DNA from: a virus
Length of the DNA stretch: 64,000 nt
Strand: one strand, 5' to 3'
Virus record (IMG/VR): IMGVR_UViG_3300031873_000001
Location: 62,001-126,000 of that record
Part shown: piece by piece, positions 3,220 through 29,766 of the stretch
Position numbering within the stretch: the stretch's first letter is position 1
How the letters are laid out: every line of letters starts with the position of its first letter
The notes under the pieces: model-generated
What the model was told of the DNA's origin: nothing
The model's database searches: none
Seen by the model: the letters and a program-made list of their open reading frames with translations, nothing else
Program-made: the position numbers and the translations under genes

Positions 3220-3812
3220 GGGGACGAACCATCGCGCTTAATAAGACCCAAGAAAGCGACCGAAGGTGGGTTAGAGAAAATAGGGATAAGATTAATAAGT
3301 GGCACCGAAGGTGGCGCGAGAAGAATCCCGAAAGAGTTAGGATTTATGAACAGGCGCGTAGGGCTCGGGAATATGCCAGCGAAGGAACGTTTACTCTGAG
3401 AGAGTGGAAGTTATTGAAGGTTATATATGGCTATCGTTGTCCTGTTTGTGGTGAGAGTGAACCAGAAATTAAACTTACGGTAGACCATATTATTCCACTG
3501 ATAAAGCATGGAAGTAACTTTATAGAAAATATTCAACCTCTCTGCCTGAAATGTAATATACGTAAGGGCGCAGAGGTCTGGAAGGTCTTGCCGAATGGTC
3601 AGAAGATTTTTTTCGACCTTCAAACTATAAACAACGGAAATACTATGAGGGCAAAAAGAATGGAAACGTCTCAACAGGTTCTTCGAGATTGGAAGGCAAT
3701 AATGACGACATGGCCATCCAGGGGGATACCGGGTAGCCCGGCTACCCCCCTGGACGCCTTCCAGGAGGGCAGGAAAGCCCCCTGGGTGCGAGAAGGGGGG
3801 TCGGGTCGATGA
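3216..3812 (+). CDS. HNH homing-type endonuclease
   Basis: 198 aa. The HNH core is clear: CPVCGE, then LTVDHIIPL with the catalytic His pair region, then ENIQPLCLKCN. A basic region rich in Arg/Trp precedes it. The first 450 bp are much more AT-rich than the neighbours, a sign of a mobile gene. The last 30 or so codons run through a strong hairpin (3717-3754) and GC-rich sequence, so the natural C-terminus may be longer than in the original gene. No duplicated neighbour gene end was found here, unlike the other endonucleases of the window. Confidence 0.8.
   Translation: MRGRTIALNKTQESDRRWVRENRDKINKWHRRWREKNPERVRIYEQARRAREYASEGTFTLREWKLLKVIYGYRCPVCGESEPEIKLTVDHIIPLIKHGSNFIENIQPLCLKCNIRKGAEVWKVLPNGQKIFFDLQTINNGNTMRAKRMETSQQVLRDWKAIMTTWPSRGIPGSPATPLDAFQEGRKAPWVREGGSGR
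3717..3754. repeat. Strong hairpin, terminator-like
   Basis: GGGTAGCC c GGCTACCC (3731-3747) is nested inside TCCAGGGGG (3717-3725) and CCCTGGA (3748-3754). There is no T-run. It lies inside the 3' end of the HNH reading frame. Confidence 0.6.
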
Positions 3813-6961: not shown

Positions 6962-7114
6962 ATGGAGGGCATTTACATGCTCAAGGGAGCAGGAGGAACT
7001 CCTGAGAGGATCCCGCATCAAGTATGCCCGTATCAATTCCTCAGAGGTTCAGGTTCCGGAGGGGGATGCCCAACGGGTTGCGGGGCTTCTCTGCTCGGGG
7101 CCGTGGAGCAATGA
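6962..7114 (+). CDS. Short Gly/Cys-rich peptide, 50 aa
   Basis: The ATG at 6962 is well spaced from AAAGGA at 6947-6952, whereas the ATG at 6954 is too close. It encodes MEGIYMLKGAGG... with the segment GSGSGGGCPTGCGASLLG. The stop at 7112 is one base before the E2 ATG at 7116. It lies in another frame from the E2 gene, where a longer open frame could hide it. It could be a Ubl target, a metal-binding peptide or merely a coupling leader. Confidence 0.5.
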   Translation: MEGIYMLKGAGGTPERIPHQVCPYQFLRGSGSGGGCPTGCGASLLGAVEQ

Positions 7115-7115
7115 T

Positions 7116-8423
7116 ATGAGCACCGCCAACGATATCGCCTTTCCCCCGATCACGGGTCGGAGGGATCGCAGGGACGCCGTAGAGGCGCCCAAGAAGCCAG
7201 CGCCGGCACCGGGGCCCCGGTTTATCATTCCCAATCTCGAGAACGCCGATGGGATGTTCTCGTGGCTCAACAAGTTTGCCGGGCTCAAGGCGGAGGTGAT
7301 CATCCCCCATGCGGAGACGCCTCCCAAGAATGTTCGGATCGACGTGGATCAGTTCGTCGATGAGAGGTTCCGGATTTTCGTTCTGGCCTTTCCGGATGCC
7401 GAGGCCGGGAACGTAGTTAAGAAGGGAACCCGGGAACGGTTCACCGTCCTGGGTCGGGATTTCAAGATGGTGTCCGGGGAGGAGGACTGTCTCGAGCTGT
7501 CTAACCCTAAAGCCTTCACGGATAAGGGATGGAAGATCATGACCGACGATCAGGGGGCCGCCCTGGCTCTCTGGAAGGATCGGAATCTATTCTTCCTGTG
7601 GGATATCGCCCACCGGAAAGACCTGAGCGGGGTCGAGCTCGAGGACAAGGTCAACCTATCGAAGTATATCGTCTTACTGTGGCTGTCGGACGTTAAGGAT
7701 CCCGAGCCCCTCAAGAAGTGGGTTGAGGAAGTTAAGTCCAGGTTCTCAAAGGATTTCGTGGTCGGTCCGATCCTACTTGATGCGCTGAAGGCCCGGCATA
7801 ATACGGAGGTCGAGAAGGTCGGTGCCGCCCTGAAGGACTTGAAGGGGAAGATCGATCAGGCCGCCCGGACGCTTCGCCTGCACTACGACGAGCGGCACAC
7901 CCTTGAGATCACTCTCGAGATTCACAAGACCCTGTCCGGGAAGGTCGATCAGATGTTCAAGGAGCAGATCGAAGCCCTTAGAGATCATCCTAAGATCGAC
8001 CGGATCAGGTTCATTGCGGCAGATGGCCGGGGAGATAACAACATGCGGTTGGAGGTCGTGACCAAGCCGATCTCCTGGCAGGACTGGTGGCTCGGGCAGT
8101 ATCAGTTCACGGTTCCTCTGGCGGAGGGGGCCCATCAGGTCATCGTGACCAATCTCTATCCCCCGCCATCGGGACGGCCTCACCCTCACATCAAGACGCC
8201 GGACAACGTCTGCTGGGGGAATTCCGGGTCGACGGTCCAGGAGCTCCTTTCCGGGATGAGGTTCTTCGAGCTCATCGATCTGATGGTGGGGATCGTGCAG
8301 TCTGTGACGCCCTCGGACGGATGGGGACAGACGATCTCGGAGTGGAAGGATAATTCGGTTCAAAGCAGGTACGTGAAGATTTTCGGTAAGGTTTCTAAAT
8401 CAAAAACGGAGGATGCGAGATGA
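7116..8423 (+). CDS. E2-like conjugating enzyme with long N-terminal region
   Basis: The ATG at 7116 has GGAG seven bases upstream and sits one base after the short peptide's stop. Of 435 aa, the last 120 form a UBC fold: YPPP, then H356-P-H358, then the expected catalytic cysteine C366 in NVCWG, then helices. The first 300 residues are a separate region with a helical middle, not recognised. Expected role: accept activated Ubl from the E1 and pass it on. No RING or other E3 is seen, so the N-terminal region may select targets. Confidence 0.8.
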   Translation: MSTANDIAFPPITGRRDRRDAVEAPKKPAPAPGPRFIIPNLENADGMFSWLNKFAGLKAEVIIPHAETPPKNVRIDVDQFVDERFRIFVLAFPDAEAGNVVKKGTRERFTVLGRDFKMVSGEEDCLELSNPKAFTDKGWKIMTDDQGAALALWKDRNLFFLWDIAHRKDLSGVELEDKVNLSKYIVLLWLSDVKDPEPLKKWVEEVKSRFSKDFVVGPILLDALKARHNTEVEKVGAALKDLKGKIDQAARTLRLHYDERHTLEITLEIHKTLSGKVDQMFKEQIEALRDHPKIDRIRFIAADGRGDNNMRLEVVTKPISWQDWWLGQYQFTVPLAEGAHQVIVTNLYPPPSGRPHPHIKTPDNVCWGNSGSTVQELLSGMRFFELIDLMVGIVQSVTPSDGWGQTISEWKDNSVQSRYVKIFGKVSKSKTEDAR

Positions 8424-9052
8424 AAACTAGGAGGACGGACGACGACGTTGTTGGGGTGCCGTCGTTGAAGATTACCCTCAAGGCGTGGCGTAAAATCCTG
8501 CTCTTCACCCAGGAGACGGACGTGGAGGTGGCCGGGCTCGGGACGGTCAAGATGCAGGGCAACAAACCCATCATCGACGACGTGATGGTTTTCAAGCACG
8601 AGAATCGCAGTGCGGCGGCGGCGGACCTCGACCCGCAGGATATCGCCGATGAGTTCTCCCGGCTGATGGAGGCGAAGCAGGACACCGGGAAGTATCGTCT
8701 GTGCTGGCATAGCCATGTGAATATGCCAGCGTCCTTCAGCGGGACGGACAGGGCCTGCATGAATAGCCTTGCCGATCTCTCGGAGTGGTTCCTGTGGATC
8801 GTGGTCAACAAGAGCGGGGAATATTCGGCGCAGATCGAAGTCTACTCCCCGACCAGGTTCAGAGCGGAGGCCAAGCTCGACATTCTCTTCGACGAGTACG
8901 ACAAGGGCTTGATCGCCGGGGTGAAGCAGGAGATGACGGAGAAACTTTTTCGTTCTACGGAGAAGGGCGAAGAGGACTTTGAAGAAACTCCTGCGGTGGA
9001 GGGGTTGATCGAAGCCTCGAAGACCGGGTCGCAGGTCCTGGAGGGCCCATGA
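8420..9052 (+). CDS. JAB/JAMM metallopeptidase (deubiquitinase-like)
   Basis: 210 aa. The zinc JAMM set is complete: E36 in VEVAG, H97-S-H99, S107 and D110 (HxH-x7-S-x2-D). Proteins of this family cleave isopeptide bonds to, or trim tails of, Ubl proteins. The Ubl here already ends in Gly, so removal of Ubl from targets seems more likely than maturation. Start overlaps the E2 stop; a GGAGGATGCGAGATG leader precedes it. Confidence 0.85.
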   Translation: MKTRRTDDDVVGVPSLKITLKAWRKILLFTQETDVEVAGLGTVKMQGNKPIIDDVMVFKHENRSAAAADLDPQDIADEFSRLMEAKQDTGKYRLCWHSHVNMPASFSGTDRACMNSLADLSEWFLWIVVNKSGEYSAQIEVYSPTRFRAEAKLDILFDEYDKGLIAGVKQEMTEKLFRSTEKGEEDFEETPAVEGLIEASKTGSQVLEGP

Positions 9053-9132
9053 CCACTCCGTCTACCATGAACCGGGACTTCTGGCGGCAGACGGACTTCT
9101 TCGATCCCATGAAGACGCCTGTGACTGCATAG
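9049..9132 (+). pseudogene. Orphan first exon-like piece of the E1 gene
   Basis: The ATG overlaps the JAB stop, the place where E1 would be expected to start. It encodes 27 residues, MTTPSTMNRDFWRQTDFF and onward, then stops. The intact E1 at 9555 starts with almost the same peptide (MNRDFWRQTDFFNPEKTPVSA) but with different synonymous codons. This is the original E1 start, cut off by the insertion of the endonuclease gene at 9148. Confidence 0.85.
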
Positions 9133-9147
9133 GAGAAAAGGAGAGAA

Positions 9148-9567
9148 ATGAGAGATTTCAAGTATGCGCACCCGGAAACTACGAAACATCATTACTATGC
9201 AAAAAATAGGGAGCGCATACTAGAGGCGCAGAAGGCTTTGCGTCCTGGATATAACACAGATATCGTATGGAGGAGAAGAATAAAAGAGCTGGGCATAGCT
9301 GATCCTCTAAAATTTTACGAGTCTGAACTTTGCAAGCAGGGCGGAGTGTGTAAAATTTGTCACGAACCACCAGAGAACGGAGTGCGGTTGTGTATTGACC
9401 ACGAGGAAGATTTTGACCACACCGGATATGTTCGGACGGTCAAAATCCGTGGACTTCTACACTATGAATGCAATCTCGGACTGGGGAACTTTCGCCACGA
9501 CCCCATATTGCTACGTAATGCCGCTGATTATTTAGGTCAAGGAGGTGAGTTGAAATGCAGAGCATGA
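9148..9567 (+). CDS. Endonuclease VII-type homing endonuclease in the E1 gene
   Basis: 139 aa of the phage recombination endonuclease VII fold: CKICHEPP, then LCIDHEEDFDHTG, then IRGLLHYECNLGLGNFRHD and an LLRNAADYL helix. These enzymes have Cys4 zinc and an H-D/N active site. The gene is AT-rich against GC-rich neighbours. It overlaps the replacement E1 start by 13 nt. Confidence 0.85.
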   Translation: MRDFKYAHPETTKHHYYAKNRERILEAQKALRPGYNTDIVWRRRIKELGIADPLKFYESELCKQGGVCKICHEPPENGVRLCIDHEEDFDHTGYVRTVKIRGLLHYECNLGLGNFRHDPILLRNAADYLGQGGELKCRA

Positions 9568-23241: not shown

Positions 23242-23317
23242 CGGGGCGTGGTGTAGTCCGGCCTAACACACCTGCCCTTCAAGCAGGCGATCATGGGTTC
23301 AAATCCCATCGCCCCGA
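23242..23317 (+). tRNA. tRNA-Glu (TTC), C33
   Basis: Acceptor CGGGGCG/CGCCCCG; anticodon loop CCTTCAA, so position 33 is C rather than U. T-loop TTCAAAT. CCA is not encoded. The D-arm (GTGGTGTAGTCCGGCC) resembles archaeal tRNA-Glu. It lies apart from the main array. Confidence 0.85.
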
Positions 23318-23376
23318 CAAGGGAGCTATTACAGTCCGGAGCCCACGACGTGCCCGAACCATAATTTTAAACCTGG

Positions 23377-24930
23377 ATGGTTAAGCTCTTCATCGGAGAT
23401 GCCCGGGACGTGCTGGCCGCCCTGCCGGAGAAGAGCGTCCACGCCGTAATAACCAGCCCGCCCTACTACGGACTCCGGGCGTATAAGAGTCCACCTTCCG
23501 TGTGGGGAGGTAAGAGGGACTGCAAGCACAAGTGGGGGGCTACGATCCCTCACCCCATGCGAAAGTCTGGCCAGCACGGTCCGGGGAGCTGTGTGGCGGT
23601 CGGGACGAAGGCCGCTCAGCACGGGCTCAGGAAGACGGGGGATCAAGGATGCTTCTGTGGGCGTTGCGGGGCGTGGAGGGGTGTCCTTGGCATGGAGCCT
23701 ACCCTGGAGCTCTACGTGGAGCATCTGGGCGTGATTGGGGAGGGTATCCGGAGGGTCTTGCGGGACGACGGGATATTCTGGCTTAACCTCGGAGACTCCT
23801 ATATGGGGAGCGGCGGTCCAGGCGGGGATTTCCGAGACGGGAAGGGAGGAGACATCTACTGCCGACCCTACAACCGGAGTGGGGACGGCCTCAAGATGAA
23901 GGACATGTGCGCCGTGCCGTGGAGGGTCGCCCTGGCCTTCCAGATGAGCGGCTGGTGGCTACGATCCGACTGCATCTGGAAGAAGGAGAACGTCATGCCC
24001 GAGAGCATCGACGGATGGCGTTGGGAGAAGCACAGGGTGAAAGTGAAGAATCTCCGGAAGGCGTCTACCGAGTGGGCTACCAAGAGCGGGAATACTTCGG
24101 GAGACGCCGGGCCGGGCCTGTCCCACAATCCCTGGGCTGAATATAAGCCCTGCCCCGGGTGTGCGGAGTGCCTCCCGAACGATGGCCTCGTTCTTCGGAG
24201 GGGAGCGTGGAGGCCGACGAAGGCTCACGAGTACGTCTTTATGTTTACGAAGGGCGAGCGTTACTTCGGAGACGGGGATGCTGTCAGGGAAGAGGCCGTC
24301 ACCTCGGAGTGGCCGGGGATCGGACCGAAGCACATCTCAGCACGGTCCAGGCTTGAAGAATACGTTCCGATGGAAACCAGGGAGACCCGAAACCGCAGGA
24401 CGGTCTGGACGATCAACACGACGGGATTCAAAGGCGCCCACTTCGCCACCTTCCCTCCGGCCCTCGTGGAGGTCATGGTGAACGTGTCGACGAGCTTCCG
24501 GGGCGTCTGCAGGAAGTGCGGATCCCAGTGGGCCCGGGTCGTGAACCGGAAGAGCCTCGAGCGTCACGAGCTCGACCGAACAGATCCACGGTTCCGTCCG
24601 TCAAGATACAAGGGGAAATACGGAGAGCTCAAAGGCGAGACGGGGAACGCCCAACGGTATGTGGAGATCGAACATCTCGGATGGCGACCGACGTGCAAGT
24701 GCAACGCCGGGGAGCCCATTCCGGCAGTCGTCCTGGATCCATTCGTGGGATCGGGGACAGCCTGCTTCGAGGCCCAGCGTCTCGGGAGGGATGCCATCGG
24801 GATAGACGTCTCGGATGAGTATATCCAGATGAGCCTGAAGAGGGTGCGGGACGATGCCCCGCTGTTCAATCAGGTCGAAGTGATTTACGCGAATGGCCGG
24901 GTGAAGCGATGTGCTGGCGCCAGCAGGTAG
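23377..24930 (+). CDS. DNA amino-methyltransferase 3
   Basis: 517 aa. TSPPYYGLR near the start and DPFVGSGTA near residue 453. The middle has two Cys pairs (HKWG..., CFCGRC; CPGCAEC; CRKCGS), so it carries zinc ribbons. Related in layout to the enzyme at 29778. The stop lies beside the palindrome at 24912. Confidence 0.85.
   Translation: MVKLFIGDARDVLAALPEKSVHAVITSPPYYGLRAYKSPPSVWGGKRDCKHKWGATIPHPMRKSGQHGPGSCVAVGTKAAQHGLRKTGDQGCFCGRCGAWRGVLGMEPTLELYVEHLGVIGEGIRRVLRDDGIFWLNLGDSYMGSGGPGGDFRDGKGGDIYCRPYNRSGDGLKMKDMCAVPWRVALAFQMSGWWLRSDCIWKKENVMPESIDGWRWEKHRVKVKNLRKASTEWATKSGNTSGDAGPGLSHNPWAEYKPCPGCAECLPNDGLVLRRGAWRPTKAHEYVFMFTKGERYFGDGDAVREEAVTSEWPGIGPKHISARSRLEEYVPMETRETRNRRTVWTINTTGFKGAHFATFPPALVEVMVNVSTSFRGVCRKCGSQWARVVNRKSLERHELDRTDPRFRPSRYKGKYGELKGETGNAQRYVEIEHLGWRPTCKCNAGEPIPAVVLDPFVGSGTACFEAQRLGRDAIGIDVSDEYIQMSLKRVRDDAPLFNQVEVIYANGRVKRCAGASR
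24912..24925. repeat. Palindrome, copy 2 of 3
   Basis: TGCTGGCGCCAGCA, a 14-bp self-complementary core identical to the centre of the copies at 2447 and 57530. It forms the last codons of methyltransferase 3 and precedes the tRNA array. Confidence 0.8.
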
Positions 24931-24933
24931 CGT

Positions 24934-24961
24934 TGCGGGGTAGACCAACAGTAAGTCAGGG
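24934..24961 (+). pseudogene. 5' half of a tRNA (fMet-like acceptor)
   Basis: TGCGGGG, TA and a D-arm GACC...GTC. It lacks a matching 3' part nearby; the complementary 3' acceptor CCCCGCA plus ACCA lies at 25779-25789. A second similar 5' half (GCGGGATAGACC...GTAAGTCAG) follows at about 24966-24992. Confidence 0.6.
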
Positions 24962-24965
24962 GCGT

Positions 24966-24992
24966 AGCGGGATAGACCAATCCGGTAAGTCA
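24966..24992 (+). pseudogene. Second tRNA 5'-half repeat
   Basis: AGCGGGATAGACCAATCCGG and onward repeats the acceptor-plus-D-arm pattern of 24934 about 34 nt later. No anticodon arm follows; the intact fMet-type tRNA starts directly after it. Confidence 0.5.
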
Positions 24993-24997
24993 GAAGG

Positions 24998-25072
24998 GGC
25001 GGGGTGGAGCAATAGCAACTCGTCAGGCCCATAACCTGAAAATTCTCGGTGCGAATCCGAGCCCCGCTCCCA
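24998..25072 (+). tRNA. tRNA-fMet (CAT), C33
   Basis: Acceptor GGCGGGG/CCCCGCT with G-U at 1-72, as initiators have a weak first pair; disc C, CCA encoded. Body GGGGTGGAGCA resembles bacterial initiator tRNA. Anticodon loop CCCATAA (C33). T-loop TGCGAAT is odd, lacking T54-T55. Confidence 0.8.
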
Positions 25073-25083
25073 GATTAAGAAGA

Positions 25084-25689
25084 TTATAGTAATCCGTTTT
25101 CATGTTCCCAGTGATGGTTAGGGCAGAGATAAGAAAGGTTCTTGATATTGTTAATTTCAGATATGAAAGCCGTGTCCGGGAAGTCTGCGACCCTTTTATT
25201 GTGAGAGCATTCAACGTGTTTTCGATATCCACAGATTCTACATTTTGCTTTAATCCCGGATTTCCTTATGATCAGTCTTGCCATGCGAGCTATTTTGCTC
25301 CTAGCTAATTGCCAAGTGTTCTTTGATTTAAAGAATTCGCCTTTGGTTTTGCTCGCAATGCTTCTTTCGAACTTGATAATTTGAAGGCAGTCATTGCAAA
25401 ACCGTCTTTTGAAATTATATTGAATGGGATATGAACCGTGGCATCGTTCACATTCATAGGAGTATGTTTTGTGGGTTCGGCGTCTTCGGGCATTATTGAA
25501 AATTGCGGCACAAGTGTGGTTGCAGAAGCATTTGGATTTCGTTTCTCCAACCTTGTGGCCATCTGGAACCTCGATAACCTTATGGCATTGAAGGCAGACT
25601 GAGGGATGCTTGTAATATTTTTTGAGGGCCCGTTCTCTGAGGATTTTAGCTGTGGCTATGCCACCGGCGGACTGCCATACTTTTCTCAT
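25084..25689 (-). CDS. HNH endonuclease inside a split tRNA, antisense
   Basis: 201 aa on the minus strand, the only confident minus-strand gene here. Zinc fingers CLQCHK, CFCNHTC, CERCHG, CNDC and CRICGY lead to an HNH end (VECSHNKRVADFPD...LCPNHHWEHENG). AT-rich. It lies between tRNA 5' halves plus an intact fMet tRNA and the leftover 3' half. Confidence 0.85.
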   Translation of the reverse strand: MRKVWQSAGGIATAKILRERALKKYYKHPSVCLQCHKVIEVPDGHKVGETKSKCFCNHTCAAIFNNARRRRTHKTYSYECERCHGSYPIQYNFKRRFCNDCLQIIKFERSIASKTKGEFFKSKNTWQLARSKIARMARLIIRKSGIKAKCRICGYRKHVECSHNKRVADFPDTAFISEINNIKNLSYLCPNHHWEHENGLL

Positions 25690-25734
25690 GGGTATCTCCG
25701 ATTTAGGTTACGGTTAAATCATAGCACAGTAGGG

Positions 25735-25789
25735 TTACGGAAAGCAAGTCCTTGTCGGATTCTGGGTGCGACTCCCAGCCCCGCAACCA
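25735..25789 (+). pseudogene. 3' half of a split tRNA (fMet-like)
   Basis: T-arm CTGGG TGCGACT CCCAG, then CCCCGCA, A and CCA. Very similar to the 3' end of the intact fMet tRNA, including the unusual TGCGA T-loop. Its acceptor pairs perfectly with TGCGGGG at 24934-24940. Left end approximate. Confidence 0.65.
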
Positions 25790-25802
25790 GGACTTATAAA
25801 AG

Positions 25803-25891
25803 GGCGGGCTGATGAAATGGTAGACAAGTGAGGCTTAAACCCTCATGGCCTTTACATAGCCGTCTGGGTCCGAATCCCAGGCCCGCCACCA
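25803..25891 (+). tRNA. tRNA-Leu (TAA)
   Basis: Acceptor GGCGGGC/GCCCGCC, A, CCA. Anticodon loop CTTAAAC with U33. Long variable arm as expected for Leu. Confidence 0.95.
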
Positions 25892-25892
25892 T

Positions 25893-25969
25893 AGGAGCGT
25901 AGTTCAATGGATCAGAACGCACGGCTCCAACCCGTGTTGATAGGGGTTCAAATCCTCTCGCTCCTGCCA
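25893..25969 (+). tRNA. tRNA-Trp (CCA)
   Basis: Acceptor AGGAGCG/CGCTCCT, G73, CCA. Loop CTCCAAC, U33. Confidence 0.95.
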
Positions 25970-25975
25970 AAAATT

Positions 25976-26051
25976 GGGGATGTATTTCAATGGCGAGAAT
26001 GCCTGCCCTACAAGCAGGAGATTGGAGGTTCGAGTCCTCCCGTCCCCACCA
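25976..26051 (+). tRNA. tRNA-Val (TAC), C33
   Basis: Acceptor GGGGATG/CGTCCCC, A, CCA. Stem CCTGC/GCAGG, loop CCTACAA, so C33. Confidence 0.93.
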
Positions 26052-26052
26052 G

Positions 26053-26128
26053 AGGCCCTTAGCTCAAATGGAAGAGCGCCGGTCTCATAAGCCGAAGGTT
26101 CCGGGTTCGATTCCCGGAGGGCCCACCA
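26053..26128 (+). tRNA. tRNA-Met elongator (CAT), or Ile2
   Basis: Acceptor AGGCCCT/AGGGCCC with an A-C mismatch at 1-72; CCA encoded. Loop CTCATAA, U33. Could be an Ile tRNA modified at C34; the sequence alone does not decide. Confidence 0.9.
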
Positions 26129-26131
26129 AAC

Positions 26132-26216
26132 GGGGGAGTGGTGAAATTTGGTAGACACGCTGGTTCCAGACACCAGTGCTTATGGCGTAAGGGTTCAAAT
26201 CCCTTCTCCCCCACCA
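26132..26216 (+). tRNA. tRNA-Leu (CAG), C33
   Basis: Acceptor GGGGGAG/CTCCCCC, CCA. Stem CTGGT/ACCAG, loop TCCAGAC, C33. Confidence 0.93.
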
Positions 26217-26220
26217 ATGT

Positions 26221-26295
26221 TCTGGCGTGACTCAACGGTAGAGTGCCCGCCTGTTAAGCGGGTTGTTGGAGGTTCGACTCCTCCCGCCAGAGCCA
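26221..26295 (+). tRNA. tRNA-Asn (GTT)
   Basis: Acceptor TCTGGCG/CGCCAGA, G, CCA. Loop CTGTTAA, U33. Confidence 0.95.
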
Positions 26296-26299
26296 GAAT

Positions 26300-26373
26300 G
26301 CCGATGTAGCTCAACCCGGTAGAGCAACGCACCTGTAATGCGAAGGTTGGGGGTTCGACTCCTCTCGTCGGCT
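26300..26373 (+). tRNA. tRNA-Thr (TGT), C33
   Basis: Acceptor GCCGATG/CGTCGGC; CCA not encoded. Stem CGCA/TGCG, loop CCTGTAA, C33. Confidence 0.92.
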
Positions 26374-26376
26374 TAT

Positions 26377-26449
26377 GGTGGCCGTCGTCCAACGGTAGGA
26401 CACGTGGCTGTGGCCCACGGAACAGGAGTTCGACACTCCCCGGTCACCC
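26377..26449 (+). tRNA. tRNA-His (GTG)
   Basis: Acceptor GGTGGCC/GGTCACC, C73. Loop CTGTGGC, U33. Confidence 0.93.
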
Positions 26450-26457
26450 CAAGATAT

Positions 26458-26534
26458 CGCGGCATCGCCAAGTGGCTAAAGGCGGCGGTCTGCAGAACCG
26501 CTATGCGGGGGTTCGACTCCCCCTGCCGCGTCCA
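26458..26534 (+). tRNA. tRNA-Cys (GCA)
   Basis: Acceptor CGCGGCA/TGCCGCG, T73, CCA. Loop CTGCAGA, U33. Confidence 0.95.
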
Positions 26535-26538
26535 GAAT

Positions 26539-26611
26539 GCTGGCATAGCTCAAACGGTAGAGCGTCTCTTTCGTAAGGAGAAGGTTGGGGGTTCGATGCC
26601 TCTTGCCAGCT
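26539..26611 (+). tRNA. tRNA-Thr (CGT)
   Basis: Acceptor GCTGGCA/TGCCAGC; CCA not encoded. Loop TTCGTAA, U33. Confidence 0.93.
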
Positions 26612-26633
26612 TTAACCAAAGGAGGGATGCGAG

Positions 26634-26870
26634 ATGAAGAAATCGGTTAGGTCTCACAAGAAGAAGGAGCCGGAGATTCCGGCGAGAGGGACGGTGGCCT
26701 GGGCCGACAAGCAGTTAGGCGAGCGTCAATTTAAGGCTCTGGTCGAGCGGGGAAACTCGAAGGAGAGCCTTCAAGCCTTCTGCTTCTTTGCCGGGAAGGT
26801 GGAAGGGATCATGGAAGTTCGGGGGATTCTGTCCACGGTCCGGATCCCGAAGGTCAAGAAGAAAGGGTGA
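26634..26870 (+). CDS. Small basic protein inside the tRNA array
   Basis: 78 aa with AAAGGAGGG and the GGATGCGAGATG leader seen at 8408 and 29483. Lys-rich ends, a helical middle (ERQFKALVERGNSKESLQAF). The last codons overlap the first bases of tRNA-Tyr. Function unknown. Confidence 0.65.
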   Translation: MKKSVRSHKKKEPEIPARGTVAWADKQLGERQFKALVERGNSKESLQAFCFFAGKVEGIMEVRGILSTVRIPKVKKKG

Positions 26871-26953
26871 GGTGCCAGAGTCCGGTCGATTGGGTCCGCC
26901 TGTAGAGCGGAAGCCGACAAGCCACGCAGGTTCAAATCCTGCCCTCACCACCA
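26866..26953 (+). tRNA. tRNA-Tyr (GTA)
   Basis: Acceptor GGTGAGG/CCTCACC, A, CCA; loop CTGTAGA, U33; long variable arm. Its acceptor 5' strand includes the stop codon of the upstream gene. Confidence 0.94.
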
Positions 26954-26960
26954 ATTTCAG

Positions 26961-27047
26961 GGAGAGTGTCCGGTTGGTCGAGGAAGCGGTTCCGAAAACC
27001 GTTACCGTTAACTGCGGTCGAGGGTTCGATTCCCTCACTCTCCGCCA
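26961..27047 (+). tRNA. tRNA-Ser (CGA), C33
   Basis: Acceptor GGAGAGT/ACTCTCC, G, CCA. Loop TCCGAAA, C33. Long variable arm. Confidence 0.93.
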
Positions 27048-27052
27048 TAGAT

Positions 27053-27139
27053 GGAGGGCGATCCGGCTGGTACGAGGAGGCAGTCCTGAAAACTGCTGGC
27101 GTGTAAAAGCGCTCGGGGGTTCGAGTCCCCTGCCCTCCG
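27053..27139 (+). tRNA. tRNA-Ser (TGA), C33
   Basis: Acceptor GGAGGGC/GCCCTCC, G; CCA not encoded. Stem GCAGT/ACTGC, loop CCTGAAA, C33. Confidence 0.93.
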
Positions 27140-27147
27140 CTGTAATG

Positions 27148-27235
27148 GGAGACGTGATCGAGAGGCTTAAGATGGCTGTCCGGAAAGCAGTCGAGCTGAA
27201 AAGCTCCCCGGGTTCAAATCCCGGCGTCTCCGCCA
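27148..27235 (+). tRNA. tRNA-Ser (GGA), C33
   Basis: Acceptor GGAGACG/CGTCTCC, G, CCA. Loop CCGGAAA, C33. All three UCN serine tRNAs carry C33, while the AGY one (27654) does not. Confidence 0.93.
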
Positions 27236-27238
27236 TTC

Positions 27239-27314
27239 TGGGGGATCATCTAATTGGATAGGATACGAGGCTCTGACCCTCGGTATCTGGGTTCGAATCC
27301 CAGTCCCTCAGCCA
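27239..27314 (+). tRNA. tRNA-Gln (CTG)
   Basis: Acceptor TGGGGGA/TCCCTCA, G, CCA. Loop CTCTGAC, U33. Confidence 0.94.
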
Positions 27315-27317
27315 AAC

Positions 27318-27401
27318 GTCGGGCTGGCGGAACTTGGTATACGCGAATGGCTCAAACCCATTTGAGCGATCGTCGGGGTTCGAATCCCCGGCCCGACACC
27401 A
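27318..27401 (+). tRNA. tRNA-Leu (CAA)
   Basis: Acceptor GTCGGGC/GCCCGAC, A, CCA. Loop CTCAAAC, U33. Confidence 0.95.
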
Positions 27402-27404
27402 CGA

Positions 27405-27475
27405 TGGGGGATAGGCCAACGGTAGGCCGCAAGGCTTTGAACCTTGTGATGAGGGTTCGACTCCTTCTCCCTCAG
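27405..27475 (+). tRNA. tRNA-Gln (TTG)
   Basis: Acceptor TGGGGGA/TCCCTCA, G; CCA not encoded. Loop CTTTGAA, U33. Confidence 0.94.
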
Positions 27476-27481
27476 CTTAAT

Positions 27482-27566
27482 GCCGAGATGGTGAAACTTG
27501 GTAGACACGCACGTTCGAGGGGCGTGTGCCTTTGGCGTGAGGGTTCAAATCCCTCTCTCGGCACCA
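27482..27566 (+). tRNA. tRNA-Leu (GAG), C33
   Basis: Acceptor GCCGAGA/TCTCGGC, A, CCA. Loop TCGAGGG, C33. Both CUN leucine tRNAs have C33; the UUR ones have U33. Confidence 0.92.
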
Positions 27567-27571
27567 GATTA

Positions 27572-27647
27572 GCCGGAGTAGCTCAAATAGTAGAGCGCAG
27601 GTCTGAAGAGCCTGGCGTAGGCGGCGCGATACCGCCCTCCGGCACCA
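27572..27647 (+). tRNA. tRNA-Phe (GAA)
   Basis: Acceptor GCCGGAG/CTCCGGC, A, CCA. Loop CTGAAGA, U33. T-loop CGCGATA lacks the usual TTC. Confidence 0.92.
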
Positions 27648-27653
27648 GATCCC

Positions 27654-27741
27654 GGAGCGATGGCCGAGTGGTCGAAGGCGACGGTTTGCTAAACCGTTGG
27701 ACTCACGGGTCCCGAATGTTCGAATCATTCTCGCTCCGCCA
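27654..27741 (+). tRNA. tRNA-Ser (GCT)
   Basis: Acceptor GGAGCGA/TCGCTCC, G, CCA. Loop TTGCTAA, U33. Confidence 0.94.
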
Positions 27742-27749
27742 TAAGACGA

Positions 27750-27825
27750 GCGGGTGTAGCTCAGATGGTAGAGCGCCTGTATGCCACGCAGGAGGTCGCG
27801 GGATCGAAACCCGTCACCCGCTCCA
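27750..27825 (+). tRNA. tRNA-Gly (GCC)
   Basis: Acceptor GCGGGTG/CACCCGC, T73, CCA. Loop ATGCCAC, U33. Confidence 0.94.
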
Positions 27826-27829
27826 GATC

Positions 27830-27901
27830 GCAGGTGTGATGCAATGGTAGCAGACCTGGCTTTTAACCAGGGGGTTGGAGGTTCGACTCCTCTCACCTGC
27901 A
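27830..27901 (+). tRNA. tRNA-Lys (TTT)
   Basis: Acceptor GCAGGTG/CACCTGC, A; CCA not encoded. Loop CTTTTAA, U33. Confidence 0.94.
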
Positions 27902-27904
27902 CTA

Positions 27905-27979
27905 GCGGGCGTAGCTCAATGGTAGAGTACCAGATTCTTAATCTGGGTGTTGAGGGTTCCAATCCCTCCGCCCGCACCA
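27905..27979 (+). tRNA. tRNA-Lys (CTT)
   Basis: Acceptor GCGGGCG/CGCCCGC, A, CCA. Loop TTCTTAA, U33. Confidence 0.94.
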
Positions 27980-27985
27980 AGATAC

Positions 27986-28060
27986 GCAGGCACAGCTTAG
28001 GGGTCAAGCATCCGGCTGATATCCGGACGAGCACAGGTTCGATTCCTGTTGCCTGCACCA
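27986..28060 (+). tRNA. tRNA-Ile (GAT)
   Basis: Acceptor GCAGGCA/TGCCTGC, A, CCA. Loop CTGATAT, U33. Confidence 0.94.
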
Positions 28061-28066
28061 GAACGG

Positions 28067-28143
28067 ACGCCCGTAGTTTAACTGGACAGAACGCCAGGCT
28101 ACGAACCTGGAGGCTGGGGGTTCGACTCCTCTCGGGCGTACCA
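28067..28143 (+). tRNA. tRNA-Arg (ACG)
   Basis: Acceptor ACGCCCG/CGGGCGT, A, CCA. Loop CTACGAA, U33. Confidence 0.95.
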
Positions 28144-28146
28144 ATT

Positions 28147-28222
28147 GCGCCTGTAACTCAATGGATCGAGTATCGGGTTTCTACCCCGAGAGTTGAGGGT
28201 TCGACTCCCCCCAGGCGCGCCA
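28147..28222 (+). tRNA. tRNA-Arg (TCT)
   Basis: Acceptor GCGCCTG/CAGGCGC, G, CCA. Loop TTTCTAC, U33. Confidence 0.95.
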
Positions 28223-28224
28223 AC

Positions 28225-28300
28225 ATGCCCGTAGCTCAATGGATAGAGCGTCTGCGTCCTAAGCAGAGGGCTGAGGGTTCGAGTCCCTCCGGGCGTACCA
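28225..28300 (+). tRNA. tRNA-Arg (CCT)
   Basis: Acceptor ATGCCCG/CGGGCGT, A, CCA. Loop GTCCTAA, U33. Sequence close to the next tRNA, so the pair likely arose by duplication. Confidence 0.95.
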
Positions 28301-28309
28301 GAAGATCGT

Positions 28310-28386
28310 ATGCCCGTAGCTCAAATGGATAGAGCGATGGCCTCCGGAGCCGTAGGTTGGAGGTTCGAGTCCTCTCGGGCATACCA
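28310..28386 (+). tRNA. tRNA-Arg (CCG)
   Basis: Acceptor ATGCCCG/CGGGCAT, A, CCA. Loop CTCCGGA, U33. Confidence 0.95.
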
Positions 28387-28398
28387 AAGGAGGAAGCG

Positions 28399-28569
28399 AT
28401 GTGGGCATTGATACAGCATTACTGGTGGATCCCGGTCGGGGTGATCATTCTCTTTGGGATTGAAAGAGGAGCCGATCGAAGGGCCAAGGAGGAGCATGCC
28501 CACCGGGAGGGGCATTGTTTGGATCATTACTGTTCGATCTGTCGGGACCGTATCGATGATGAATTTTAG
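28399..28569 (+). CDS. Small membrane protein with C-terminal Cys/His cluster
   Basis: 56 aa from the ATG at 28399 after AAAGGAGG. One N-terminal membrane segment ([15 protein letters not shown]) and a tail with [12 protein letters not shown]. Sits inside the tRNA array. Function unknown. Confidence 0.65.
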
Positions 28570-28575
28570 GCCATT

Positions 28576-28649
28576 GCGGTTGTGGTGAAGCGATATCATG
28601 TCTGCCTTCCAAGCAGAGGTCGCGGGTTTGATTCCCGCCAGCCGCACCA
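28576..28649 (+). tRNA. tRNA-Gly (TCC)
   Basis: Acceptor GCGGTTG/CAGCCGC, A, CCA. Loop CTTCCAA, U33. T-loop TTTGATT and a D-loop without a clear GG. Confidence 0.9.
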
Positions 28650-28652
28650 TGT

Positions 28653-28694
28653 GGGACCGTCGTCTAACGGGAGGACTACTGGTTTGCACCCGTT
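28653..28694 (+). pseudogene. 5' two-thirds of a split tRNA-Ala (TGC)
   Basis: GGGACCG, D-arm GTC TAACGGGA GGAC, then an anticodon arm with loop TTTGCAC (TGC, U33). The sequence then leaves the tRNA pattern. A matching T-arm and acceptor (GAGGG TTTGACT CCCTC, CGGCTCC, ACCA) lies at 29447-29474. Confidence 0.65.
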
Positions 28695-28723
28695 GACTTC
28701 GGTAAGCCTTCCTATGCTATAAT
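28693..28723 (+). promoter_or_regulatory. Possible promoter within a hairpin
   Basis: TTGACT (28693-28698), a long 19-nt spacer and TGCTATAAT (TATAAT 28718-28723), an extended -10. It could drive the endonuclease frame at 28763. The -10 lies in the left arm of the inverted repeat at 28711-28754. Confidence 0.45.
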
Positions 28724-28754
28724 TGCTTGAAGTTTCAAGTAGTTATAGCATAGG
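28711..28754. repeat. 44-nt near-perfect hairpin
   Basis: CCTATGCTATAA (28711-28722) pairs with TTATAGCATAGG (28743-28754), and inside it CTTGAA (28726-28731) pairs with TTCAAG (28734-28739). It marks the left side of the inserted segment in tRNA-Ala and may be an element end or a regulator of the endonuclease. Confidence 0.75.
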
Positions 28755-28762
28755 AGAATGAC

Positions 28763-29359
28763 ATGAAGCAAGATTTATGGGTGCTGGAAGGAGGAATCGA
28801 ACCTCCAGCCGCTACGTTAGGAAAACGAAGGCGAGCAAAGAGGACGGCGTGTGGAACTTGTAAGAAAGGTTTCCTTTAGAGGAAAAGCGGGACGAAACGG
28901 TTTTGCTCGAGAAAGTGTCGGGACATATCGCTTCAGAATAGAGAAGAGCTAAAGTGCTTTACTTGCGGGCGGAAATTCTTTAGGCCAATAGGTCATATCA
29001 AAAAGTCGAAACATGGAATTTTCTTTTGTCGCAGGAAGTGCAAGGACAAAGGGCAAAGATTAGAAGGCGGATGCAGGGAAATATGGCCTTCTCATTATGG
29101 CAAGATAGATGCTACGGGAATCGACTACCGGAGCAAGATGGAGAGGGAACTCAAGCGAGGGTGCGTGGATTGCGGGGAGAAAACGCATTACCTTTTAACC
29201 GTTCATCATATCGATGGAGACAGGGGAAGCCGCAAGAAATCAAACTGGGAAGTGGTCTGTTGGAATCATCATGCTAAAAGGCATTTAAGAAAGACGGCCA
29301 ATGGATGGGTGGTGGCTTGGGGATGCTTAACTCCGAGACGACTTTTGAAGAAGATTTGA
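28763..29359 (+). pseudogene. HNH endonuclease frame broken by one in-frame TAG
   Basis: From the ATG at 28763 the frame reads MKQDLWVLEGGIEPPAATLG... through a zinc finger start (ACGTCKKGF) to TAG at 28877-28879, and continues in the same frame (RFCSRKC, CFTCGRKF, FFCRRKCKD) to a full HNH end (CVDCGEKTHYLLTVHHIDG...VVCWNHHAKRH) at 29359. The stop splits one Cys4 finger. The first codons are the reverse complement of a tRNA T-arm. Either a recent knock-out or a read-through stop. Confidence 0.75.
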
Positions 29360-29368
29360 AAACCGTGT

Positions 29369-29443
29369 GGGCTGGTGGTGTAATTGATAGCATCGTAGAC
29401 CTGCAATCTATGGGTCGGGGTTTGAGTCCCCGCCGGTCCACCA
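29369..29443 (+). tRNA. tRNA-Ala (TGC), C33
   Basis: Acceptor GGGCTGG/CCGGTCC, A, CCA. Stem TAGA/TCTA, loop CCTGCAA, C33. T-loop TTTGAGT. An intact replacement next to the split tRNA-Ala. Confidence 0.92.
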
Positions 29444-29446
29444 AAT

Positions 29447-29474
29447 GAGGGTTTGACTCCCTCCGGCTCCACCA
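29447..29474 (+). pseudogene. 3' part of the split tRNA-Ala
   Basis: T-arm GAGGG TTTGACT CCCTC, acceptor CGGCTCC, A, CCA. The acceptor pairs with GGGACCG at 28653 with one mismatch. Confidence 0.65.
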
Positions 29475-29496
29475 AAAATTAAACGGAGGATGCGAG

Positions 29497-29700
29497 ATGG
29501 ATCAGGCAACGAAGGAGCGGATCGACGGGATGGACTACGAGTCGATGCTCCGGCTGTGGAGGAATGCTCCGGTTGGGGAGCCGTTGTTCCAGGGGGAGAC
29601 GGGGGATTACTTTTCTAAGGTCATGGCAGAGAAGCGGGACGCCCTTCCCGAAGGGGCCCACGTTGCGGCCAGCAAGAAGATAGGATGGACGGGGGCGTAG
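29497..29700 (+). CDS. Unknown small protein, 67 aa
   Basis: ATG after ACGGAGGATGCGAG, the leader shared with 8420 and 26634. An acidic/aromatic helical protein. Its last codons overlap tRNA-Asp. Function unknown. Confidence 0.6.
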   Translation: MDQATKERIDGMDYESMLRLWRNAPVGEPLFQGETGDYFSKVMAEKRDALPEGAHVAASKKIGWTGA

Positions 29701-29766
29701 TTCAGGTGGGAGAACGCCTGATTGTCGATCAGGAGGTCGCGGGTTCGAGTCCGGCCTCCCCGACCA
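29690..29766 (+). tRNA. tRNA-Asp (GTC)
   Basis: Acceptor CGGGGGC/CTCCCCG, A, CCA; a mismatch in the acceptor and one in the T-stem. Loop TTGTCGA, U33. Last tRNA of the array. Confidence 0.88.

Follow-up and report, generated by a model that had tools for sequence, protein, structure and literature searches.

An HNH endonuclease gene and an intact tRNA-Met(CAU) gene between the halves of a broken tRNA-CAU gene in a phage tRNA array: a candidate homing cassette with a substitute tRNA

A broken tRNA-CAU gene, whose two halves enclose an HNH endonuclease gene and an intact tRNA gene of the same anticodon, was analyzed in a 64,000-nt stretch of viral DNA (hereafter the window), which comprises bases 62001-126000 of the 159.5 kb virus contig IMGVR_UViG_3300031873_000001. 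The broken gene belongs to an array of more than 30 tRNA genes (window 23242-29766), as determined with ARAGORN and Rfam. No near DNA relative was found among sequenced phages; the IMG/VR contig L009/L031 (160 kb) is colinear with the window across the tRNA array at ~90-97% identity, and a DNA pattern built on the tRNA halves matched L009 only. The features at the break are, in order:

24934..24963, + strand: 5′ half of the native tRNA-CAU (acceptor, D-arm and 5′ anticodon stem), TGCGGGGTAGACCAACAGTAAGTCAGGGGC, 28/30 identical to L009 7043-7072
24966..24997, + strand: another tRNA 5′ half, of different sequence and in tandem with the first (acceptor AGCGGGA, D-arm GAC/GTC), detected as a 32-nt spaced repeat family with spacing 32/32
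24998..25072, + strand: intact tRNA-Met(CAU), the presumed replacement (ARAGORN; Rfam 49.2 bits)
25084..25689, - strand: HNH endonuclease gene, 201 aa, matching PF13391, with the HNH residues kept in the family alignment
25755..25789, + strand: 3′ half of the native tRNA-CAU (variable region, T-arm, acceptor and CCA), TCGGATTCTGGGTGCGACTCCCAGCCCCGCAACCA, recognized by its match to L009

BLAST aligned window 23377-24963 with L009 5489-7072 at 94.6% identity, a match that starts in a methylase gene and ends at 24963, and the match resumes at window 25755-25800 with L009 7083-7128 (97.8%, E 2e-16), where 45/46 positions are identical, the downstream spacer included. In L009 both halves are joined as an intact tRNA-CAU at 7043-7117 (Rfam 49.9 bits), indicating that they are adjoining parts of one tRNA and not of unrelated ones. 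Ten nucleotides of L009, CCCATAAGCC, comprising the anticodon loop and part of the stem, are absent between the halves in the window; in their place are 791 bp that hold, in order, the second tRNA 5′ half, the intact tRNA-Met(CAU) and the minus-strand HNH gene. As the window lacks CCCATAAGCC, L009 cannot have arisen by precise excision from the window form, and the split form is, on these alignments, most simply taken as derived and the unsplit L009 form as ancestral. A preliminary description, made from the window alone, had proposed a tRNA split around an antisense HNH gene. The unbroken gene of L009 bears this out, and the 5′ half was correctly placed at 24934, but the 3′ half begins at 25755 and not at 25779.

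The presumed replacement lies 12 nt from the HNH gene, whose 3′ end points toward it, and since this complete substitute tRNA stands beside the HNH gene, the virus probably loses nothing from the break. The tRNA had been called initiator-type, which agrees with the A11:U24 pair and the CAU anticodon; position 1-72, however, is noncanonical, being U-A in the broken and G.U in the intact tRNA, so the tRNA is initiator-like rather than a canonical initiator. The unusual TGCGA T-loop (G55), described before as common to the leftover half and the intact tRNA, is real and occurs in L009 too: TGC instead of TTC was observed in the phage tRNA-CAU genes at window 24998-25072, L009 7043-7117 and L037 2853-2926. 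The first two of these also carry C33 instead of U33.

The HNH protein of the window scored 22.0 bits against PF13391 (HNH_2), above the cut-off of 21, which was also passed by the HNH proteins of MT836666, L084 and L059, with that of L202 slightly under it (20.8). H163, N184 and H193 are invariant across the HNH family alignment, that is, the catalytic His and the Asn/His motif are kept. Queried directly with the window protein, viral contigs yielded no relative, and relatives were reached only via profiles; the best among sequenced phages is in MT836666, a gut phage scaffold (33% identity).

The insert could also be read as an integrase-type element that entered the tRNA gene and restored it by supplying a 3′ end of its own. 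A direct repeat of the tRNA 3′ part, 84% identical over 32 nt (25042-25073 and 25759-25790), does resemble attachment sites; but the open reading frame (ORF) list of the 0.8-kb insert contains the HNH gene only and no recombinase, the repeat is diverged, and the native 5′ half is also left over. Such an element is considered the least probable of the explanations weighed in this study.

Two features absent from the preliminary description were also found, namely the tandem 5′ half at 24966-24997 and a complete second event at a tRNA-Ala(UGC) gene (28653-29474), 3.7 kb downstream of the first; an early simple regular-expression scan had picked up the tRNA-CAU event only. The tRNA-Ala(UGC) gene is whole in L009 (10438-10511), and the window has in its place:

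28653..28690, + strand: native tRNA-Ala(UGC), 5′ half including the anticodon loop, matching L009 from 10438, with homology ending at 28676
28719..28754, + strand: long perfect hairpin before the second HNH gene (fold z-score -6.9)
28763..29359, + strand: second HNH gene, its frame containing a TAG at 28877-28879, with a relative in LR756511 (39.6%)
29369..29443, + strand: intact foreign tRNA-Ala(UGC), the presumed replacement (ARAGORN)
29445..29474, + strand: 3′ half of the native tRNA-Ala(UGC), where L009 homology resumes (29445 with L009 10482)

The substitute tRNA-Ala shared 0.69 identity with the native L009 gene, the lowest of the array tRNAs compared (others 0.80-1.0), as expected of a foreign gene. 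The second HNH gene is probably decayed. The start of its frame overlaps an antisense tRNA T-arm at window 28790-28806 (GGAGGTTCGATTCCTCC, minus strand), perhaps a further tRNA remnant.

The same layout was then sought in 80 + 80 viral loci (overlapping) and 28 genome loci obtained by profile searches. For 110 nonredundant HNH entries, the flanks were joined in silico and ARAGORN was asked for a tRNA, and tRNAs were obtained for 17 of the 110 entries in the correct order, compared with 3 in the reversed-order control. In two entries, MT836666 and L202, the scan automatically reported a tRNA of the same anticodon between the halves (control, 0). MT836666 carries a split tRNA-Asp, in which CGAGGCTG...CACTGTCA is followed by the HNH gene, an intact tRNA-Asp(GUC) and CTGTGAAGG...CAGTCTCGG, and the acceptor and anticodon stems of the two halves are complementary. 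L202 is the cleanest case: between a 5′ half ending in CGACTCTCA and a 3′ half starting with TAAGGTCG lie an RNA motif, the HNH gene and an intact tRNA-Met(CAU), the insertion falls between A35 and U36 (CA|U) with zero bases lost, and removal of the insert gives a perfect tRNA. L059, with a 5′ half, HNH gene, intact tRNA-Met and 3′ half but a damaged anticodon arm, is a probable independent case. No clear halves were found at the HNH genes of TomSawyer and Ep030, which lie beside tRNAs, nor at that of LR756511, which adjoins a tRNA-Val. A looser scan with an artificial anticodon arm was unspecific (37 entries vs. 18 in the control) and was not used; the anticodon tally of the excision script for the first event (Ala/AGC) is meaningless as the anticodon is lost, and an apparent tRNA-Asp split in L202 was actually an intact tRNA that ARAGORN missed. 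The RNA motif of L202, a three-way junction with a GAAAAGGGUAGCUCCCCU core, is present in two copies (2420-2470 and 3477-3525) that differ by compensatory changes, each copy lying between a piece of tRNA and the start of an HNH gene; the motif had no Rfam match and was absent in the other fetched loci.

Together, these observations support the replacement reading of the preliminary description, as this phage has two breaks accompanied by an intact same-anticodon tRNA, at least two unrelated phages show the arrangement too, and an unsplit relative exists. We consider that, with a probability of about three in four, the insert is a homing-endonuclease cassette that pairs an HNH gene with a complete tRNA gene and that entered a phage tRNA gene at its anticodon arm. 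The split native gene, its intact relative, the same-anticodon tRNA and HNH gene in the insert, and the recurrence with other tRNAs and phages are all read directly from the sequences; the cleavage site, the repair-based transfer, the resistance of the substitute, and expression and function are what we infer. In a mixed infection, the HNH enzyme would cut the anticodon arm of an unsplit tRNA gene, and the break would be repaired from the carrier phage, with the flanking tRNA halves and the array as homology. This would leave the recipient with a tRNA gene in two parts, the HNH gene and the carried tRNA lying between them. Having the same anticodon but a diverged sequence, the carried tRNA would take over the lost function and presumably not be cut.

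Several points weigh against this reading. Cutting and transfer are deduced from sequence, the polarity was judged from a single near relative, and the window sequence is that of an assembly. The HNH gene is antisense in the first event and sense in the second, in MT836666 and in L202; the window junctions are unclean, with 10-20 nt lost; the second HNH gene has an in-frame stop; and it is uncertain that the substitute tRNA-CAU works as an initiator, given its G.U 1-72 pair and C33. Further, most HNH-tRNA neighbors in the family show no tRNA halves, which would also suit ordinary array decay, in which a tRNA duplicate already existed, a free-standing HNH gene landed nearby, and deletion or illegitimate recombination broke one copy, with neither homing nor rescue. 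The tandem 32-nt tRNA 5′ pieces and the bases lost at the junctions do indicate messy recombination. However, the order of half, HNH gene with same-anticodon tRNA, and half recurs at four or five tRNA genes, with three anticodons and in unrelated phages, no base was lost at the L202 junction, and a single tRNA of L009 corresponds to three pieces plus a whole tRNA in the window. Decay of this kind is thus regarded as unlikely, though it is the most credible of the alternatives to a homing cassette.

A further reading is that the native tRNA is still produced, either with the insert acting as an intron or by joining of the halves in trans. Like tRNA introns, the insertion lies in the anticodon arm; family members occur in group I intron-like inserts of tRNA genes (L128 and L139); and the halves of L202 and MT836666 would give a correct tRNA if joined. 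The window halves, however, both lack the anticodon CAU, as CCCATAAGCC is gone, so that, unlike the halves of a split tRNA, they cannot be joined, by trans-splicing or otherwise, into a CAU tRNA. No group I or II intron or ribozyme core was matched in Rfam at E up to 10 across 24880-25850. The full tRNA inside the insert would, moreover, be excised by RNases P and Z, separating the halves. Continued production of the native tRNA by either route is hence very improbable.

HNH relatives were located in phage tRNA arrays, and 18/44 of the tRNAs directly after an HNH gene carry CAU vs. 45/588 of all tRNAs in the loci (p = 6e-11), a count from the 110 nonredundant HNH entries in which related loci are partly non-independent. 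In L072 (2638-3474), L084 (2503-3320) and L096 (2526-3338), an initiator tRNA is split at CA|U by the HNH gene without a substitute tRNA; the HNH stop codon TAA forms U36-A38 of the tRNA, and the halves, when joined, give tRNAs with the initiator features of a 1-72 mismatch and A11:U24. These inserts begin with conserved hairpins (CGGUUUAAAAGCCG / CAGUUUUAAAAGACUG). No ribozyme was recognized in the L084 and L096 inserts, and for the three split genes the alternatives are that the gene was lost or that the insert is an intron of an undescribed kind. In L127, L128 and L139 (reverse strand), an HNH gene of the family is found in antisense orientation within an insert of a bacterial tRNA gene that resembles a group I intron; the inserts of L128 (cyanobacterial bin) and L139 (Anaerolineales bin) scored 42.9 and 32.5 bits, under the gathering score of 50 (E 8e-8 and 1e-4, respectively). 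According to a 2014 review, all group I introns recognized in phages up to that time were located in protein genes (PMC3984707). The relatives in initiator tRNAs split at CA|U and in tRNA group I introns point to the family targeting anticodon arms. Tentatively, and with the odds rather against it, an HNH lineage may have specialized on tRNA anticodon arms, tRNA function being kept by a group I intron, by a carried substitute tRNA or, in phages like L072, L084 and L096, by a so far unknown tRNA splicing or repair. Many diverged copies of the family were also observed along the length of IMGVR_UViG_3300037484_000435, a 545-kb phage contig (L048, L049, L087, L161, L164, L176, L177, L182 and L185).

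Of known phage systems, HegA (F-TflIV) is an HNH gene annotated in a T5-like phage, which we take to lie in the T5 tRNA region, and it has only a short local match (27 aa) with a relative of the second HNH protein. SegB of phages T4 and T6 is a GIY-YIG endonuclease, unlike HNH. It is a homing enzyme encoded beside, and cutting within, array tRNA genes, so phage homing enzymes do cut within tRNA genes; SegB differs in being free-standing and is not described inside a split tRNA with a substitute (PMC13096335). A likeness in principle is offered by the WHO homing elements at FBA1 of Torulaspora and Lachancea yeasts, where an endonuclease gene, in either orientation, is accompanied by a replacement sequence that keeps the target gene working and is held to resist cutting, and gene fragments are left over, with repeated invasions producing fragment clusters (PMC7282813). 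In the window, too, an intact replacement for the broken gene adjoins the endonuclease gene. The WHO elements differ in residing in a yeast protein gene, in replacing only the 3′ gene end and not the whole gene, and in their intein-derived zinc-finger enzyme (PMC7282813); the window protein matches HNH_2 only and no intein-derived HO-like endonuclease. The comparison is thus one of principle, and homology is not claimed. By this analogy the two 5′ halves in tandem, at 24934 and 24966, may be traces of repeated invasion, which would account for the extra half, itself apparently an older broken copy; alternatively, they may come from plain slippage duplication.

No published description of an HNH gene with a substitute-tRNA cassette was found in a literature search that covered few subscription journals. 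Homing elements are known to spare their target by RNA splicing, protein splicing or, in the yeast WHO elements, partial replacement. If true, a homing cassette that supplies a whole substitute for the RNA gene it breaks would be a further solution and a natural counterpart of laboratory cleave-and-rescue gene drives, and would help to explain the turnover of phage tRNA arrays and their tRNA fragments and HNH genes. It predicts that the enzyme cuts the native gene and not the substitute.

Elsewhere in the array, L009 carries small ORFs between tRNAs (7117-7427 and 9031-9370) without a counterpart in the window, indicating that the array often gains or loses short genes. A palindrome, TGCTGGCGCCAGCA, lies at the end of the methylase gene (window 24912-24927), with about four further copies in the phage contig.
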